Virus record (IMG/VR): IMGVR_UViG_3300047297_000281
Span: 1-31,802 of that record
Origin: a virus
Direction: 5' to 3' (one strand)
DNA length: 31,802 bases
Below are positions 14,841-31,255 of the stretch, piece by piece; within the stretch, counting starts at the first letter, position 1, and every line of letters begins with the position of its first letter. The notes below the pieces were generated by a model. It was not told the origin of the DNA. It ran no database searches and worked only from the letters and a program-made list of their open reading frames with translations. The position numbers and the translations under genes were made by a program.

Positions 14841-15079
14841 TTGAAATAGGTTACAATAGTTATGCGTGTGCCCCGCATCTTCCTTAGGGCCAAGCGGTGC
14901 ACCTTACCCAGTTTCTCTAGCCGCTTCATCATGCGGAACACCTGTGCTCGGCAACAGCCTTGCACCTGCATGATCTGCTCAATCGATACGTACCCTTCTG
15001 GGGTAGGGTCTTCCTGACCCTCCTTCATATTATAATACGCGTCCAGCAGGCGCTGGGCTTTTACTTCGGTAGTTTCCAT
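14837..15079 (-). CDS. Small winged-helix protein
   Basis: This 80-residue protein reads as a winged helix: VSIEQIMQVQGCCRAQVFRMM (helix-turn-helix), then LEKLGKVHRL and GTRITIVTYF as the wing strands. It probably binds DNA. Its place inside the late operon between phosphoesterase and holin is unusual for a regulator. It overlaps the phosphoesterase end by 19 bases and is coupled to the holin. Confidence 0.7.
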   Translation of the reverse strand: METTEVKAQRLLDAYYNMKEGQEDPTPEGYVSIEQIMQVQGCCRAQVFRMMKRLEKLGKVHRLALRKMRGTRITIVTYFK

Positions 15080-15780
15080 GTATCGGTTCCGTCGTGGATG
15101 TGGAGCGTAGGCTGTAAAGACGTGTCGCAGTATTCGCCATAAACGAACCCCTGTGACCAGGCTAGGGTACTCTTACGCGTGTTCGCATATTCCATGGCGC
15201 CCTTCTTAGTCAGGGTGCCCACGGAGATACCGCGTGAAGGGTTGTAGGTTCGGCCGGCCTGAATGCTGGCCTTATGGGTATGGGCAAAGATTACATTACC
15301 GTAGGTCTCTGCCATATCGCGGCAGGAATTCTCGTTATATATCGTGCCGTGCGTAAAGAGGTAGTCCCCCAGCTTGTATGCCTGGAACACGCCGATGTAA
15401 GGAATCAGCCTGGCGTGGAGTTTAAGCGCGGTCACTTCGATAGCCTCAATACAGGTCTCCGCTGCCAAGGCCCGCAGCTGGTTATGGCTGTTCCGGTCAC
15501 GCCATAGCCGGGCTTCATGGTTACCGCAGAGAATGGTGGTGGCCTGCAGCTTGTTTAAAAACTCAATGCCCCCCAGCAGGTCAGGCTTAATTGGGTCACC
15601 CTCTCCACTGGCACTGCCCATGAAAGGGGACATATCCGTGAAGTCACCCAGATGGATCATCTCGTGCGGGGCGTATTGCTTCCGAAACTTGAGCACCGCC
15701 TCAGTAGCCAGCGGGTCAGCGTATATGCCGTGCGAGCAACCGACTGCCATAAACCGCTTCCATGATTTGGTTATATTCAT
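15061..15780 (-). CDS. Calcineurin-like metallophosphoesterase
   Basis: This 239-residue protein has the series of metal-binding motifs of this superfamily: CSHG (15-18) at motif I, LGDFTD (44-49), CGNHE (85-89), FTHG (142-145) and FAHTH (165-169). Such enzymes hydrolyse phosphodiesters, nucleotides or phosphoproteins with two metals. Motif I usually reads DxH; here the first residue is Cys, which may alter metal choice. The start ATG 15780 overlaps the previous stop (ATGA). The substrate is unknown. A nuclease or a host nucleotide-signal hydrolase are both possible. Confidence 0.83.
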   Translation of the reverse strand: MNITKSWKRFMAVGCSHGIYADPLATEAVLKFRKQYAPHEMIHLGDFTDMSPFMGSASGEGDPIKPDLLGGIEFLNKLQATTILCGNHEARLWRDRNSHNQLRALAAETCIEAIEVTALKLHARLIPYIGVFQAYKLGDYLFTHGTIYNENSCRDMAETYGNVIFAHTHKASIQAGRTYNPSRGISVGTLTKKGAMEYANTRKSTLAWSQGFVYGEYCDTSLQPTLHIHDGTDTWKLPK

Positions 15781-17131: not shown

Positions 17132-18037
17132 TTAAAGTCCGTAATAAACGCGGGGCATTAATTGGCAAATGGTGTTTTGCGATGCCGTGGCCCCGGTGAG
17201 AATGGACGCGCCAATGTTTGTATTATTGTTGGTTGAACCAACTCCCGTCGGGCCATCGGTGACGGTGATTGCTAGGCCGTTTTGAAGGTTGGAGTAACAA
17301 AAGAGTTTAATCGTGCCAGCGCCGTCAGAGTAAAGCGTCCAACTGTTGTTAGCAAAGTTGTTATTTGCTTGGAGCGAGTTGTAGTTAACATAAGCCGAGG
17401 CTTTAGCCGTTGTCCCATCATGGTAGAGGATACGGATCTGCGCCGTGTTGGCGGCAGTCGTGTTAATGTGAATCCCCATTCCTTTGTCGGTAAGAACGCC
17501 AACAAAGTTCGCCGGGTAGGGAAGCCCAATCCCAACCCAATAATTCACATTTGCGGCGATGCCGTTACCCCCGTCATTAAATGCCGAGTGTAGAGCAATT
17601 TTCTTTGACCAGTTAAGGCGATACTTAGCAAGAGCCGCGTTACCGTAAAACTGCCCAACATAGCCAGAAACCGAGGTTGATTTACTGGTGGCCATTGATG
17701 CCCGCGAATTGGCCAACGATGCCGAGGTGACTAGGTTGTGAATATTTGTTGCGTAAACTGAAGTAGCGGCAACGCCGCCATTTACCACGACAGTTGAATA
17801 CGCTGTGTTCGGGTGGTCATACCAGGTAAAGTCTGGGATATCAGCAACCAGAGCCAGCCATGCGGCATCCTTACGGACGTAGGCTTTAGAGTCGGATGGG
17901 GCGTCGGTTATGCCGGGCGTTACTACTTCCCAAGCCGCGTCCTTGCGCGCATAGGTAGAGCCGTCAATCGGAGCGTCAGATAACTTCGCCGCCAGCAAAG
18001 CGTCCGTAGATTCCGAACTGTAAAGACTGACAGCCAT
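17132..18037 (-). CDS. Tail fibre or receptor-binding protein
   Basis: This 301-residue protein has two fibre repeat units of the type DAP-x-D-x-x-x-YARKDAAW at about 21-40 and 44-62, common in phage tail fibre stalks. They are followed by a beta-rich domain (about 70-301) with many Asn, Ser and Tyr, likely the receptor-binding head. The C-terminal part looks like a jelly-roll or lectin-type fold (WTLYSDGAGTIKLFCYS). The start overlaps the previous stop as TAATG. It shares a 20-base identical stretch with the other fibre gene. Confidence 0.75.
   Translation of the reverse strand: MAVSLYSSESTDALLAAKLSDAPIDGSTYARKDAAWEVVTPGITDAPSDSKAYVRKDAAWLALVADIPDFTWYDHPNTAYSTVVVNGGVAATSVYATNIHNLVTSASLANSRASMATSKSTSVSGYVGQFYGNAALAKYRLNWSKKIALHSAFNDGGNGIAANVNYWVGIGLPYPANFVGVLTDKGMGIHINTTAANTAQIRILYHDGTTAKASAYVNYNSLQANNNFANNSWTLYSDGAGTIKLFCYSNLQNGLAITVTDGPTGVGSTNNNTNIGASILTGATASQNTICQLMPRVYYGL
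17925..17944 (+). repeat. 20-base repeat shared between fibre genes, copy 1
   Basis: ACTTCCCAAGCCGCGTCCTT occurs here and at 18733-18752, inside the KDAAWEV unit of two different fibre genes. Such repeats can guide domain exchange between fibres. Confidence 0.9.
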
Positions 18038-18219
18038 TAGGAGAGCGTGTAACCCTTGGCGGCGATGAGGGCTAAGAGGGCGGCTTCGGTAACGGCAAAA
18101 AGAGGTTCGACACCGGGTGCGCTGTGCCAGACTACGTCCTGCTTTACGGCGCCGATGACGCGGGCCTTGCCGTTGATAGCGAAACCAGCGAAGCCGTCAG
18201 ATGGATAGGTTGATTTCAT
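18037..18219 (-). CDS. Small fibre-associated hypothetical protein
   Basis: This 60-residue protein lies between two fibre genes and is coupled to both by TAATG overlaps. The N-terminal half looks like a beta hairpin (FAINGKARVIGAVKQDVVW) and the C-terminal part is helical (TEAALLALIAAKGYTLS). It may be a fibre chaperone or a small tail decoration protein; no family is recognised. Confidence 0.6.
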   Translation of the reverse strand: MKSTYPSDGFAGFAINGKARVIGAVKQDVVWHSAPGVEPLFAVTEAALLALIAAKGYTLS

Positions 18220-19700
18220 TAGGCAATATAGAACGAGGAGTTAGAGCCAGAGATTTGAACCGTATTGTTTGAGGTGCTGATGGCAGAGGCCAGATAGAAG
18301 GACGAGCCAGAAGAATAACTGTAAGCGATTAGCCCGTCGGTGACGTTATAGACGCCCCAGCCGATTAGCCCAGCAATAGATGGAAGGCCGTTGCCTACCC
18401 AAGTGCCAGTCGAACCCGTGATGAAGTTAACGTTAGAGGCGATGGCGTTGGCGGTCAGAACGTCCGCGCTAGGTGGGGCTACTGCCGCCGTACTTTGAAC
18501 GGTAGCGTCCGCAAAAGTAATGCCACCAGACGAAGGGGAAAGGTCTAGCCCGCTGTAAGTGAAGGTCGGATTACCAGATGGGCCTGTGAGTGTAACGCCG
18601 CCACATTCAATGCCGCTAGTGAATACCGGGGAATTAAGGTCTGCCTTGAGGTCTAACTCGCTCTGCAAATCCGTTTGAGTCGAAAGCGTTCCGGTGATTG
18701 CACCCCAAGCAACACCGCCGCCGCCAGCGACCACTTCCCAAGCCGCGTCCTTTCGGGCATACTGCGAGCCGTCGCTAGGTGCGTCTGGGATACCAGCCGT
18801 AGTCTGGGTGCTTGCGTCTGGGAAGGTTAAGCCGCCGCCGTTCGTGGCTAAAACAAACTTGCCATCATTTGGCGTAAACTTGTGGAGGTAATGCGTACCA
18901 GCTCCCGTGTCGTTATAAGAATCAACGACCAAATCCGTATTAAGGATGTTGCGGATTGCAGGTGTGTAAATGCGGGTCGTGAAGGTCGGCGACTCAATCG
19001 TGGCCTTTAGGTCTAGCGCGGTCTGTAGGTCGGTCTGCGTTGAAAGCGTTCCCGTGATGGCACCCCAAGCCACCGAGGTCGCAGGGGTGACACCGCCCAC
19101 GTTAACAACCCAAGCCGTGTAAGTCCCTGCCCCGGTGTGGTTCTTGATGTCTACAGTTAATACCCCGGTGCCGGAGTTATACGTCAACACCTCGCCATGC
19201 ATATGGTGCGCCGCGTCGTAGGAGATGGTAAGGTCTTGCCCCGGTGTGTACGACAAGCCCGTGCCAATCGTAAAGGTCTTGTTACCGTTGCTGACCGAGT
19301 TGCTCGTGACCGAGGTCGTTAGGTAGCGATCACCGGGAATTACAGTAGTCCAATTCGTATCGTAGTTCGTCCCGCTGACCTTGGTGAGCAGTTGTCCCGT
19401 AGTCCCGCCAACGGCAACCCCTGCGCCAGCCGCACCCGTGGCGCCCGTAGCGCCAGTCGCACCAGTCTGTCCGGCGGGGATGCCAAAGTTAAACACTGCC
19501 GCGGAAGAGGTGCCGGAGTTATTTACAGTAGCCGGTGAACCAGCCGAAATGGTCGTGGTAGTGCCTACGGTTATCGTGGCAGCTGTGCCCGCGCTACCAG
19601 CAGCGCCAGGTACGCCTACCTCCAGAACCATCTGCTGAGTCTGGTCTGCGTCCAGCAGAGTAAGGGTTACAGTGCCAGGAGAGAGTGCGACTAGGCTCAT
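18219..19700 (-). CDS. Tail fibre protein with collagen-like segment
   Basis: This 493-residue protein has a short N-terminal beta domain, then a collagen-like run of Gly-x-x triplets (about 75-92, GQTGATGATGATGAAGAG), then two copies of the unit WGAITGTLSTQTDLQ and one DAPSDGSQYARKDAAW unit. The C-terminal domain is Ser/Gly-rich. This is a trimeric fibre layout with a stalk of repeats. The ATGA overlap couples it to the preceding small gene. It is probably the main fibre shaft, with the following gene adding a tip or alternative receptor binder. Confidence 0.85.
   Translation of the reverse strand: MSLVALSPGTVTLTLLDADQTQQMVLEVGVPGAAGSAGTAATITVGTTTTISAGSPATVNNSGTSSAAVFNFGIPAGQTGATGATGATGAAGAGVAVGGTTGQLLTKVSGTNYDTNWTTVIPGDRYLTTSVTSNSVSNGNKTFTIGTGLSYTPGQDLTISYDAAHHMHGEVLTYNSGTGVLTVDIKNHTGAGTYTAWVVNVGGVTPATSVAWGAITGTLSTQTDLQTALDLKATIESPTFTTRIYTPAIRNILNTDLVVDSYNDTGAGTHYLHKFTPNDGKFVLATNGGGLTFPDASTQTTAGIPDAPSDGSQYARKDAAWEVVAGGGGVAWGAITGTLSTQTDLQSELDLKADLNSPVFTSGIECGGVTLTGPSGNPTFTYSGLDLSPSSGGITFADATVQSTAAVAPPSADVLTANAIASNVNFITGSTGTWVGNGLPSIAGLIGWGVYNVTDGLIAYSYSSGSSFYLASAISTSNNTVQISGSNSSFYIA
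18733..18752 (+). repeat. 20-base repeat shared between fibre genes, copy 2
   Basis: Identical to 17925-17944; see that entry. Confidence 0.9.
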
Positions 19701-27081: not shown

Positions 27082-27939
27082 TTAGGGGTTAAGAGCCAGA
27101 GCCATCGTGCCAGTCGTGATACCCTTCGCGGCGCCGAACATGACTTCAAACGATGCGATGATATTACGCGAAGAGGCATCAACCCAGATGTTATAGTAAA
27201 CAGTCAGGCCGAGCTCATCAATGGTCATGCTGTTGGATTCGAGCATCAAACCCTTGACGTGATCGAGGGCAGGAGCGGCCGAGGCCACAGCGATAGCAGA
27301 CTGGTCGCAAGCGAAGGCAGCCAGTTTAGCAACGCCATTGAAGGACGAAGCGTAGAAAACGCCAGCCTCGAAACCGTACGAGCCGGAGGTGCCGAGAGGC
27401 AGGCCGAGCGCGTTGGTCGGGATGAGGTTCGCGTAGATACCAGCGTTCGTGACGAGACCACGGCGGCGGCTCTTAGAGACGCCAGCCCAGAGCTTGGCAA
27501 GGTCACCAGAGGTAGGCGTGATAGCCGAGTCAGCAGCGGTAACGACAGCAGCGCCGAAGTTAACAACCGTGATAGGAGCGGTAGCCAGGGCCCAGATCTT
27601 GTCGGCGAGGGCGTCCATGTTGACCTGGATAAGATTCTCCAGCTTGATGGCGTTCTGGATATCGGCGTACTCAAGGCCGAACGGCTGGTACACGTGGTCG
27701 AGGGTAACCGTAGCCTTGGCAAGGGTCGTACCGGCAACGCTGTTAAAAGCGGTGGGGTTAAGGACAGTAGCCGAGGTGGCGGTGGCGAGAGGAACCTGAA
27801 TGGTGTCCTTCGGCTTCTTCACCTGGTCGGAGAAGTCGCTGGAGAAAAGGGAGAGAGCGGCAAGGCGGTTAGCCAAAACGGTCTTACCCTTGGTGCTGAT
27901 GGTCGCGGCGATTAGGCCAGCGTCGATGGTGTTTGCCAT
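27082..27939 (-). CDS. Major capsid protein
   Basis: This 285-residue protein forms the shell. It begins MANTIDAGLIAATISTKGK and carries VLANRLAALSLFSSDFSDQV, TIQVPLATATSATV, LDHVYQPFGLEYADIQNA and LENLIQVNMDALADKIW, the pattern of a P22-coat-like family of HK97-fold capsids. The position after portal, protease and scaffold is typical. Its codons are strongly biased toward C- or G-ending, as expected of the most expressed gene; this also creates long false antisense frames. A TATAAT box sits just before the ATG and a terminator follows the stop. Confidence 0.88.
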   Translation of the reverse strand: MANTIDAGLIAATISTKGKTVLANRLAALSLFSSDFSDQVKKPKDTIQVPLATATSATVLNPTAFNSVAGTTLAKATVTLDHVYQPFGLEYADIQNAIKLENLIQVNMDALADKIWALATAPITVVNFGAAVVTAADSAITPTSGDLAKLWAGVSKSRRRGLVTNAGIYANLIPTNALGLPLGTSGSYGFEAGVFYASSFNGVAKLAAFACDQSAIAVASAAPALDHVKGLMLESNSMTIDELGLTVYYNIWVDASSRNIIASFEVMFGAAKGITTGTMALALNP

Positions 27940-27970: not shown

Positions 27971-28378
27971 TTAGCCGATGCGCTTGCGGGCAGCAAAGAG
28001 CTCAGACTTATGCTTGGTGAAGAATTCGTCACGCGCTTTGCCGGCCGACATGGAAGCGAGCTGTTCCAGCAATTCCTTGCCGGTGGGCTTCGCGGTCTGC
28101 TCAGCAGGGGTGACGTTAAGAGGGGCGATAGGAGCGCCAGCCTTGGCGATCAGGTCAGCGGCCTGCTTAGAGGCGGTGGCCTGAGCGGCTTCCAATTCGG
28201 AAACCTTAAGGGCAAGGGCGTCACGCTCAGCCAAGAGGGTGGCGGCCAAATCCTTGGCGGCGGTCAACTCCGCGTCAGCGGTGGTAACCTTGGCCATGAA
28301 AGAATCACGCTCAGAGGTGAGGGCCGACAGGTCAGCCGTCAGCTTAGCGTTAAGGGCTTCAGGAGTTTCTTTGCTCAT
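27971..28378 (-). CDS. Possible separate scaffold product from an internal start
   Basis: The ATG at 28378 (Met 127 of the fusion gene) begins MSKETPEALNAKLTADLSA, a natural-looking scaffold N-terminus, directly after the phosphatase domain. Starting here gives a 135-residue helical protein without the enzyme domain, similar to how lambda makes Nu3 from within gene C. Only weak purine enrichment precedes it. This is inference and is not required by the sequence. Confidence 0.3.
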   Translation of the reverse strand: MSKETPEALNAKLTADLSALTSERDSFMAKVTTADAELTAAKDLAATLLAERDALALKVSELEAAQATASKQAADLIAKAGAPIAPLNVTPAEQTAKPTGKELLEQLASMSAGKARDEFFTKHKSELFAARKRIG

Positions 28379-28756
28379 GTCTTCATCATTAGCCGCCGTG
28401 TTGATAATTTCGGCCGGGTCGATGACCTGTACGCCCAATTCAGCCACCGCGTTGCGGGTGTCTTCGCGGTTATCGATGAATGCCTGCACGTCATAGCCCT
28501 GGTCGAGCAGCGCCTTGACTTCGTTACGCTTGAATTCGGGTGCGTCCTGGCTACCGCCGTTCATGATTAGGCGGCTGTATTCGATTTCCAGCGCGGCCAA
28601 TTCGGCCACGGTGGCGTCACGCGTAGATTCAGCGCGGTTCGTCAGCAGGACTAGCGGGCTCTGGTATGCCTCGATAAAATCCTCCACAGGTTCGATGAGC
28701 ATACCCGCATCGTCAATGAGGGTGCCATCAATATCGGAAATAATGATTTCAGGCAT
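27971..28756 (-). CDS. HAD-family phosphatase fused to capsid scaffold protein
   Basis: In this 261-residue protein, residues 1-115 form a HAD phosphatase with motif I DIDGT (Asp 8 and 10), motif II LLTN (Thr 39), a Lys (76 or 81) at motif III and FIDNRED (Asp 95) at motif IV. This resembles the 3'-phosphatase domain of polynucleotide kinases. Residues 127-261 are a charged coiled coil ending KHKSELFAARKRIG, as expected of a scaffold that shapes the prohead. It lies between the protease and capsid genes, exactly where scaffolds lie. All catalytic positions are kept. The role of the enzyme domain is unknown, and the fusion is unusual. The upstream 8-base overlap with the protease shows coupling. 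Confidence 0.78.
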   Translation of the reverse strand: MPEIIISDIDGTLIDDAGMLIEPVEDFIEAYQSPLVLLTNRAESTRDATVAELAALEIEYSRLIMNGGSQDAPEFKRNEVKALLDQGYDVQAFIDNREDTRNAVAELGVQVIDPAEIINTAANDEDMSKETPEALNAKLTADLSALTSERDSFMAKVTTADAELTAAKDLAATLLAERDALALKVSELEAAQATASKQAADLIAKAGAPIAPLNVTPAEQTAKPTGKELLEQLASMSAGKARDEFFTKHKSELFAARKRIG

Positions 28757-29546
28757 TGGAATTGGGGCTGGTCTTCAGGGCGTCCTCAAGGGAGTTAGCC
28801 AGGCCAGTGGCTAGGCCAAGGGTAGCGGACGTACGGCCAGAGAACGTCTGGCCACGCATGGACGAATCGGCGATGGTCGAACGCGTCTTACGGACGTCAG
28901 CACGGAACGTGGCACCCAGCTCTTCGACGTAGCGGATGGCGTCCTGCATCTCTTCGTCAGAGATTGAGGAACCATCAGCGCCACCTTTCAGGTCACCGGA
29001 CGTAATAGAGATAATCTTAACGCCAGCATTCTCGTATGCCTTAGACCAGTCTTCGATGACGAGCCGTACGCCGATACTGCCCACGATTGCGGACGGCGCC
29101 ACGATTACCCGGTCAGCGGCCGCACCGATGTAGTACCCAGCCGATGCCATGATCTGGTCGGAATAGGTCGCGGTGGGCTTGCTAGAATTGCGGACGAGCT
29201 CTGCCACTTCCTCCACGCCAGTGGCCGTGCCACCAGGGGAGTTAACGTACAGCCAGATTTCAGACACTTGAGGGTCAGCCTCCATGGCCTTAAACGCCTT
29301 CGTGAAGTCGTTAAGGTCAACGCCGCCTAGGGCTTTCTCAAGTGAGCTGAGCCCCTTGCCGATGACACCCACCAGAGGCACGACTGCCACCATACCGGTC
29401 TTAGACGGCGCGGGGCGGTCAGCCACCATCTGCACCAGCTTATCCACCATGCCCAGCTGCTCGCTGGAACGGTAGAGGTCTAGTGCCTGGTTAGGCTCAA
29501 TCATGAGGGGCTCGCGGCCCTTCAAACCTTGGAGTAAGAATTTCAC
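28749..29546 (-). CDS. Head maturation protease, S49/SppA family (lambda C-like)
   Basis: This 265-residue serine protease should cleave scaffold and perhaps portal in the prohead. Seen are LYVNSPGG (oxyanion region), ASAGYY with catalytic Ser 135, ADRVIVAPSAIVGSIGV and SGDLKGG with Lys 187 as partner base, spaced as in SppA-like enzymes. The start is GTG 29546, following the portal stop. The lambda gene C also holds the scaffold in its C-terminus; here the scaffold is a separate downstream gene. Confidence 0.9.
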   Translation of the reverse strand: MKFLLQGLKGREPLMIEPNQALDLYRSSEQLGMVDKLVQMVADRPAPSKTGMVAVVPLVGVIGKGLSSLEKALGGVDLNDFTKAFKAMEADPQVSEIWLYVNSPGGTATGVEEVAELVRNSSKPTATYSDQIMASAGYYIGAAADRVIVAPSAIVGSIGVRLVIEDWSKAYENAGVKIISITSGDLKGGADGSSISDEEMQDAIRYVEELGATFRADVRKTRSTIADSSMRGQTFSGRTSATLGLATGLANSLEDALKTSPNSNA

Positions 29547-29547
29547 G

Positions 29548-31011
29548 TTATTGTTGTGGAGATTCGGTATCTGCTGGCTGGGTCATTGCGCTTACCTGAC
29601 CAGGAGATGAGGGGATATTATTATACCGCTGGCTCAGCGTGTTAACTGGCAGTTTATACTTCTCTTCCAGCATACGCAGGTAAGCGATATCGCGGGCCAG
29701 CTGTTCGCTGTCCGTGTCAAAGTTAGCCGCACGGCGCTTATACAATTCCGTAAAGGACGTAAGCCCCAGCTTCAGGTCTTCGCGATCATTAGACGCGTCA
29801 CGGCCGTTATCGATAGACGGAGCGGGCGGGCACGTCCATGATACTTCCATCCATTCCGGGTCATCGGGTAATTCCCCATCGCTGATACCCTTGGCAATAA
29901 TCTCATTCCAGCTGGGCGTTAGGTCATCCTCAATCAGCATGGTCTGCACGGAGCCGACATAGCGGCCTGCCTTGCCCAGCGTCATACGGATGGTGCCTGA
30001 ACCAGCCTTAGTGCTGTCATGCACGAATTCGTAAGGGAGACCACCGGCGCAGATCATGCGCTGCAGGGCATCGTTAAATCCAATCCAAACGTTCGTGCCA
30101 CGCGTGGGCACCGGGTATTCCAGCTTCTCCCCGGTGTCGAGCACAAGCAGTTTACCGCCCATCTTACGGCTGATATCATCGTAAGCGTTGCCACCGTTCC
30201 CGGTGACTTCGGCGGCCGTGGTCGGGTCAAGGGTGCCACCTGCCTTAGTGATTACGCGTGGAATATCCGAAACGTCTTTAACTGCGGTTTTTTCCATCTC
30301 GAACACCTCTGCCTGATCCTGCATGGTGTTGAGGGCTTGAGCCAGGGGCGGCAGGCCGTGGGCGGCGCTGGCCCGCGTGGCCTTGCTGATGTGGCGAACC
30401 TTATCGGCAGGCACCCTGCGGTCACTGCCGTCATCCATCTTAAAGTTATATTCCAGCACCTCGCCGTAACTGCCGAATTTGAAACCGTCTGACCAGCCTT
30501 CGCCCTGCTGGGCATCGGCAGGGTTAACGCACCGGTGGGCTTCGATAATCTGTTGCTTAATCTCGCCCTGCCTGTCCTCCACGGAGACCACAAACAGCTC
30601 GCCGTCAACGCACCAGGTGTGAATCTTAATCTTCTGGGCATCGCCGTAAGACCAGCGCCCATCAATTGTGGGCTTACGCATCTTACGGAGGTAATAGTTT
30701 ACGTACTGCTTAGCCTTCTTTTCGTCCTGAGCGTGGCTGTTCGGCATGATGCCGTCACCCACCACGTACGTTACCATATCGAGCGCGTACTGCGTCATGC
30801 TCGCGTAATTCTTTTCAGCGTAGCGGGCCTTCTGCAGTAAACGGAATCGGGTCGATTGCGTTACCTCGTTACGGTTATCGGACGGCGCCGTGCCGTAAAA
30901 TTGGATTCGGCGGTCAGTCCATGAAGCCGAATTATAGTTACCCTGGTACTGCTCAGCCTGGCGCGTCTTCGCCTTGGCCTTAACGTTTTTCTTAGAGCGA
31001 GCGGGTGTCAT
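29548..31011 (-). CDS. Portal protein, lambda family
   Basis: This 487-residue protein forms the dodecameric ring through which DNA enters and leaves the head. Recognised are ASWTDRRIQFYGTAPSDN, MTQYALDMVTYVVGDGI, VDGELFVVSVEDRQ, VRHISKATRASAAHGLPPL and MICAGGLPYEFVHD, typical of the lambda gpB group. I chose ATG 31011 over the TTG at 31023, as the family starts with a short basic tail and ATG is favoured. It overlaps the end of the gpW-like gene by 20 bases. Confidence 0.92.
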   Translation of the reverse strand: MTPARSKKNVKAKAKTRQAEQYQGNYNSASWTDRRIQFYGTAPSDNRNEVTQSTRFRLLQKARYAEKNYASMTQYALDMVTYVVGDGIMPNSHAQDEKKAKQYVNYYLRKMRKPTIDGRWSYGDAQKIKIHTWCVDGELFVVSVEDRQGEIKQQIIEAHRCVNPADAQQGEGWSDGFKFGSYGEVLEYNFKMDDGSDRRVPADKVRHISKATRASAAHGLPPLAQALNTMQDQAEVFEMEKTAVKDVSDIPRVITKAGGTLDPTTAAEVTGNGGNAYDDISRKMGGKLLVLDTGEKLEYPVPTRGTNVWIGFNDALQRMICAGGLPYEFVHDSTKAGSGTIRMTLGKAGRYVGSVQTMLIEDDLTPSWNEIIAKGISDGELPDDPEWMEVSWTCPPAPSIDNGRDASNDREDLKLGLTSFTELYKRRAANFDTDSEQLARDIAYLRMLEEKYKLPVNTLSQRYNNIPSSPGQVSAMTQPADTESPQQ

Positions 31012-31255
31012 ATCGAGAGGCAAAACAGGATTGGCGGCGCAGGTTCTTATACGTGGCCGGGTCTAGAATCCATAGGGCATGGTTACATTCCGCGATAATA
31101 GCGGACGGCGGGGCGGTCAGTTGCTTGTTAACGCTGGAGCCAGAGTCAGAATATGAGACCACAATAAGCCCGGACGCGTAACGATCCATGGCAGTCTGCT
31201 TAGTAGCCAACAGCCAAGACTCACTTGCCCCAATGAATAAACCAGTAGCGGCCAT
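30992..31255 (-). CDS. gpW-like head-tail joining protein candidate
   Basis: In this 87-residue protein, the middle reads VVSYSDSGSSV then IIAECNHALWILDP, resembling the strand and helix pattern of gpW-type joining proteins in which a 'VxYxDxS' strand precedes a helix. The position between terminase and portal is exactly that of lambda gene W. The start follows CTAAAAGTATATG, just after the terL stop. Similarity is by eye. Confidence 0.58.
   Translation of the reverse strand: MAATGLFIGASESWLLATKQTAMDRYASGLIVVSYSDSGSSVNKQLTAPPSAIIAECNHALWILDPATYKNLRRQSCFASRYDTRSL

Follow-up and report, generated by a model that had tools for sequence, protein, structure and literature searches.

Why would a phage join a phosphatase to the scaffold of its capsid? 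The question is raised by the window, a viral stretch of 31,802 nucleotides that makes up one entire IMG/VR record (IMGVR_UViG_3300047297_000281). An open reading frame (ORF) on its minus strand (27971-28756) encodes a 261-aa protein in the slot between an S49 head maturation protease and the major capsid gene. A first-pass annotation had described this protein as a HAD phosphatase domain, with its catalytic positions kept, fused to the capsid scaffold. Here, we confirm both halves of the fusion, report the same HAD lineage on a second prohead protein, and propose that the scaffold may carry the phosphatase into the head.

A HAD phosphatase domain fused to a capsid scaffold

The HAD assignment stood or fell with a profile match, and one was found: residues 1-130 match PHROG 415 ('polynucleotide kinase'; E 5.7e-10). 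In Pfam, the window protein scores slightly below the curated cut-offs of Hydrolase_6 (9.9e-6) and Acid_phosphat_B (1.9e-5) and also below that of HAD_PNKP; homologues pass the cut-off of Acid_phosphat_B. A single-sequence phmmer search of the PDB returned chance matches only, and a HAD profile compared with PDB sequences ranked Pnkp1 first (1.5e-7), followed by class C acid phosphatases (1.4e-4). The AlphaFold2 (AF2) model, built from a 40-sequence alignment, has a pLDDT of ~90 for residues 1-120 and the element order of the HAD Rossmannoid fold. Its top Foldseek match in the PDB is the 3'-phosphatase domain of T4 Pnkp (5uj0; E 7.9e-6; TM 0.70 by target length), and MDP-1 and VSP are also among the matches.

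The window protein carries all four HAD motifs, D8-I-D10-G-T, T39-N-R41, K76 and D95-N-x-x-D99 (Table 1), confirming that residues 1-118 are a HAD superfamily phosphatase. The domain has no cap insertion, with 28 residues from D10 to T39 and 37 from T39 to K76; capless HADs have an open active site suited to large substrates. As in T4 Pnkp and bacterial Pnkp1, a C0 HAD fold is combined with a DxDGT motif, and the signature [ST]-x-R-x4-R-x2-T aligns with Pnkp1 at the residues corresponding to T39, R41, R46 and T49. The domain is PNKP-like and probably of the polynucleotide 3'-phosphatase (PNKP) type, a likeness proposed at first pass that now stands as a prediction from both fold and profile. 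The enzyme is probably active, judging from its conserved residues.

The other half of the protein is the scaffold. In some relatives the slot is filled by a stand-alone 154-aa gene with homology to residues 127-261 (hhalign 2e-26), and in others ClpP-type head proteases end in a homologous C-terminal tail (hhalign 2e-8). Together with the position between S49 protease and major capsid protein, these homologies confirm a capsid scaffold at the level of sequence comparison. The predicted coiled coil is borne out by one long helix in the AF2 model. Beyond it, the C-terminal helices carry a conserved motif with a counterpart in the ClpP-fused tails (FExKHKxxIWAHR) and are the probable capsid-binding end.

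An internal start at Met127, suggested at first pass as a source of free scaffold, fared less evenly. A methionine occupies the boundary in 39/40 fusions, and stand-alone scaffolds start near the equivalent position. Shine-Dalgarno-like sites precede this methionine in almost none of ~38 contexts and not in the window; the main start of the fusion ORF likewise lacks one. The boundary methionine fits an ancestral or internal start, and two products are possible but unsupported.

The fusion is retained in 5 near-identical contigs and, once wider searches across related uncultured tailed phages are included, in a total of 45 further distinct IMG/VR contigs from many samples, where HAD is fused to this scaffold in an intact frame at 32-97% identity (some carry identical proteins, and some add an N-terminal PHROG 2859-type module). 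An assembly or sequencing artefact, for which we found nothing in favour, is ruled out by these independent contigs, and we give it a negligible probability. The notion that the two halves are always separate genes is also rejected; four contigs split off the PHROG 2859-type module alone, with HAD still fused. All relatives are metagenomic, and HAD-scaffold proteins are absent from the 84,980 reference genomes, GenBank phages and plasmids searched. Outside the viral set, related coat genes occur in only three contigs of metagenome-assembled genomes (MAGs; labelled Verrucomicrobiota, Burkholderiaceae and Chthoniobacter); in these, the slot contains either a ClpP-scaffold fusion or a scaffold with no partner.

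Among 42 non-redundant scaffold-borne HADs, D8, D10, G11, T12, T39, R41, S44, R46, T49, M65, K76, D95 and R101 are invariant, against a mean column conservation of 72%; position 96 is N in 30 and D in 12, and position 99 is variable. For near relatives, dN/dS is 0.081 in HAD relative to 0.117 in the rest of the protein (the scaffold half), and two groups of greater divergence again have the lower value in HAD. Purifying selection on the HAD half is at least as strong as that on the scaffold half. These patterns bear on whether the domain is catalytically idle and serves the scaffold as bulk, spacer or oligomerisation domain. Several unrelated modules are tolerated at scaffold N-termini, as such a role would allow, but the invariance of four HAD motifs across 32-97% identity and the low dN/dS make it very unlikely, with the caveat that motif IV varies in the second group of HADs described below.

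A second, unrelated prohead carrier

A HAD-only profile search, blind to fusion partners, recovered 80 viral loci: 43 on scaffold, 32 on Peptidase_S78 prohead proteases, 4 cut by contig ends and 1 free-standing. Hence, 75/76 complete ORFs are fused to one of two carriers, and the S78 protease is unrelated to the scaffold. The S78 loci belong to HK97-type phages, with Phage_portal before and HK97-type Phage_capsid after the gene, and their products combine HAD and protease in one polypeptide. A search from one S78-type HAD returned 20 HAD-S78 proteins, 4 truncated sequences, and a single large protein of another kind next to a portal gene (contig L271). Similarly, 'prohead protease' records are among the nearest Foldseek neighbours in the BFVD viral structure library. 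The partners recovered by the HAD-only search indicate that members of this HAD lineage are joined specifically to proteins that go inside proheads.

Within the S78 proteins, HAD lies before the protease, before or after a PHROG 2859 module, and once after the protease (L109); a domain that may be N-terminal, internal or C-terminal to its carrier fits cargo rather than a structural part. In a tree of 118 columns, scaffold-borne and S78-borne HADs form separate groups (100/100), each with its own carrier; the inner order is unsettled, and the tree neither establishes nor rejects a single clade for the scaffold-borne HADs. Motif IV varies in the S78-borne copies (E or D at position 95, with position 99 varied), and some of these may be weaker or altered enzymes whose activity is less certain.

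Two separate fusions also bear on a cytosolic role, in which HAD is joined to an abundant late protein for dosage, or is set free through cleavage by the head protease. A late, abundant carrier and a flexible linker of low pLDDT are compatible with this. Both fusions, however, are to prohead-interior proteins; free or otherwise fused close relatives are almost lacking, and random dosage fusions would be expected on other late genes too. We therefore consider a cytosolic enzyme unlikely.

Several of these loci have features of their own. The sole free-standing close relative (L101:4992-5378, = L228) adjoins PAPS-reductase-like and ParB-like genes. In two S78 proteases (L118:2660-4627 and L124:71-2371), HAD and the PHROG 2859 module are accompanied by a DUF5824 domain. 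In L271 (2830-6356), the portal gene is followed by three consecutive ORFs with the repeated tag 'YELRHPGHPDQSVHNPHKGG'; one also contains HAD and other parts, and another has a P-loop that weakly matches Zeta_toxin. The tag may serve to target internal cargo proteins to the head or to mark them for processing. Pontimonas phage phiPsal1 was considered as a HAD carrier and rejected, as it matches through the PHROG 2859 module and S78 protease alone and has no HAD.

The scaffold slot and a proposed fate of the phosphatase

A census of the slot in contigs with the same or related coat genes found HAD plus scaffold in 34, a separate module gene with HAD-scaffold in 4, and module, HAD and scaffold in one protein in 7. 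Other contigs have a ClpP-type protease fused to the scaffold tail. By eye only, an apparent third head protease, neither S49 nor ClpP, is fused to the same tail in members of this coat family (L150:2874-3929, L164, L167 and L168). From the ClpP-type and by-eye third-type proteases, the N-terminal partner of the scaffold tail appears often to be an enzyme working inside the prohead. The PHROG 2859-type module (~110 aa, 'GDGVT..T..EAR.M..G.VS.DK..R...W..RH'), in turn, occurs on both scaffold and S78 protease (e.g., L077:4581-4919, L010:3143-3478, L103:2758-3084, and others); its model (pLDDT 92) has no PDB match by sequence or fold.

Scaffolds are usually seen as disposable templates. We propose instead that a scaffold-tethered PNKP-type phosphatase is brought into the prohead and that some of it is retained and delivered to the next host, a reading that we place slightly on the favourable side of even. 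The steps of activity, entry, cleavage, retention, injection and substrate are inferred. The C-terminal helices would bind the inner face of the coat while the long helix lines the prohead, and each scaffold molecule would bring in one linker-tethered HAD phosphatase. The S49 protease would afterwards degrade or trim the scaffold; most likely, at least some folded HAD (~13 kDa) would remain in the head and enter the next host with the DNA. There, it could strip phosphates from nucleic-acid 3' ends or from defence-made (oligo)nucleotides. Carriage into every prohead, as claimed at first pass, is strengthened by the attachment to S78 proteases; entry itself is part of the model rather than of the observations.

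Prohead loading of a probably active PNKP-like phosphatase has precedents that argue for it by analogy. Engineered P22 capsids package enzymes that have been joined to the P22 scaffold (PMC9962691). The arrangement is alike, with the enzyme N-terminal to the scaffold and the scaffold C-terminal end kept; the P22 fusions are artificial, whereas this one evolved, with a protease at hand for possible removal of the scaffold. For natural fusions of enzymes to MuF, portal or capsid-processing peptidase, packaging and injection have already been suggested (Iyer et al. 2017, PMC5512222; PMC9503650). These polyvalent proteins likewise join enzyme domains to a head protein in a late operon, but carry several disparate enzymatic domains relative to the single one here; text searches of both papers turned up neither a HAD phosphatase nor a scaffold acting as carrier. 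HAD-on-scaffold is best read, by these analogies, as a natural counterpart of the P22 cargo-scaffold and a further form of head-packaged effectors. The locus also resembles lambda C protease/Nu3 in its order of S49 protease, scaffold and capsid and in relatives with an enzyme N-terminal to the scaffold tail. It differs in having a phosphatase as the additional enzyme, a protease encoded by a gene of its own, and a scaffold with no detectable Nu3 homology (hhalign probability 0.1%, two-sequence Nu3 profile). In the open-access papers searched, HAD is not described with a prohead, protease or scaffold.

Several observations weigh against delivery of a PNKP-type enzyme. HAD is dispensable in the slot, with scaffold alone in 16 contigs and PHROG 2859 module plus scaffold in 10, and no HAD was found elsewhere in larger relatives lacking the fused one (0/25). 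Prohead entry and virion retention are predictions from metagenomic sequences. Identity to T4 Pnkp is only ~15% (~15-24% across T4 Pnkp and Pnkp1), and with class C acid phosphatases as the next sequence relatives the substrate class is not fixed. Relative to T4 Pnkp and Pnkp1, the present HAD is also smaller, has no attached kinase and sits on a head protein with no DNA ligase nearby. On ten HAD-bearing contigs, no DNA ligase was found (the positive control worked), making a self-contained T4-style repair pathway less likely; an RNA ligase scan of the same contigs gave no match, but its control was also silent. In the window, no kinase or ligase partner is convincing. Host-defence nucleotides or 3'-end signals are plausible targets.

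The fusion-less relatives, with no HAD elsewhere, argue that HAD is optional cargo that assembly does not require. They bear on the alternative that the phosphatase acts only during head assembly, on coat, portal or scaffold phosphates or on 3'-phosphates at the ends of packaged DNA, and is lost along with the scaffold, either ahead of packaging or while it proceeds. Scaffold and protease are normally removed at maturation, and the conserved catalytic residues would suit this role as well. Relatives of the same coat family without HAD, however, indicate that no assembly step in the family needs it, and a phosphorylated head protein is not known here; we regard an assembly-only role as rather unlikely.

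A more specific form of the cargo-carrier proposal remains tentative, and we hold it as a possibility below even: natural cargo-on-scaffold delivery (via the S78 protease in a sister group), in which the protease frees the phosphatase and the injected enzyme, within minutes of the start of infection, undoes defence-made 3'-phosphate ends or nucleotide signals. One phosphatase lineage on the scaffold and on a second head protein would suggest a general route for enzyme loading into virions. It points to a phosphatase step, during packaging or soon after infection begins, that has gone unrecognised, offers a natural template for capsid cargo engineering, and makes the protein a candidate virion-borne counter-defence enzyme.

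The locus and neighbouring genes

The head genes follow the order terminase, lambda-type portal, S49 protease, HAD-scaffold fusion and coat gene (Table 1). The ATG of the fusion ORF lies inside an 8-base overlap with the protease stop, which suggests that it is probably translated by coupling to the protease gene. The neighbourhood of the major capsid gene with portal, protease and scaffold is kept in >100 contigs.

Table 1. Coordinates in the window of the fusion protein's features and of the adjacent head genes
Feature	Position	Strand	Evidence
HAD phosphatase domain, residues 1-118, C0 (capless) PNKP-like type	28403..28756	-	PHROG 415, AF2, Foldseek, PDB profile
HAD motif I, D8-I-D10-G11-T12	28721..28735	-	invariant in 42 scaffold-type and 26 S78-type HADs
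HAD motif II and PNKP-like signature, T39-N-R41-x4-R46-x2-T49	28610..28642	-	T39, R41, R46 and T49 invariant in both sets
HAD motif III lysine, K76	28529..28531	-	invariant in 68/68 domains
HAD motif IV, D95-N/D96-x-x-D99	28460..28474	-	D95 invariant in 42 scaffold-type; E or D in S78-type
Flexible linker, residues 119-131	28364..28402	-	pLDDT <50 at 124-130; length and sequence vary
Met127 codon at scaffold boundary, possible internal or ancestral start	28376..28378	-	Met conserved across fusions
Scaffold coiled-coil helix, residues 132-205 (74 residues)	28142..28363	-	DSSP on AF2 model; stand-alone scaffold homology
C-terminal helices 226-260, conserved FFxKHKxELFAARK, putative capsid-binding end	27977..28081	-	model helices; ClpP-fused tails
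Portal protein, lambda family	29548..31023	-	Phage_portal_2 8.6e-27
S49 head maturation protease, stop overlaps fusion ATG	28749..29546	-	Peptidase_S49 4.2e-19; PHROG 53 3.1e-45
Major capsid protein	27082..27939	-	position and conserved neighbourhood; no Pfam or PHROG match

Two further observations concern the tail region. Downstream of the tail genes, a calcineurin-like metallophosphoesterase (15061-15780) is a second phosphatase-type enzyme on the contig. Finally, two adjoining tail-region proteins (17132-18037 and 18219-19700) have in common a repeated segment like 'DAPSDGSxYARKDAAWEVV'.
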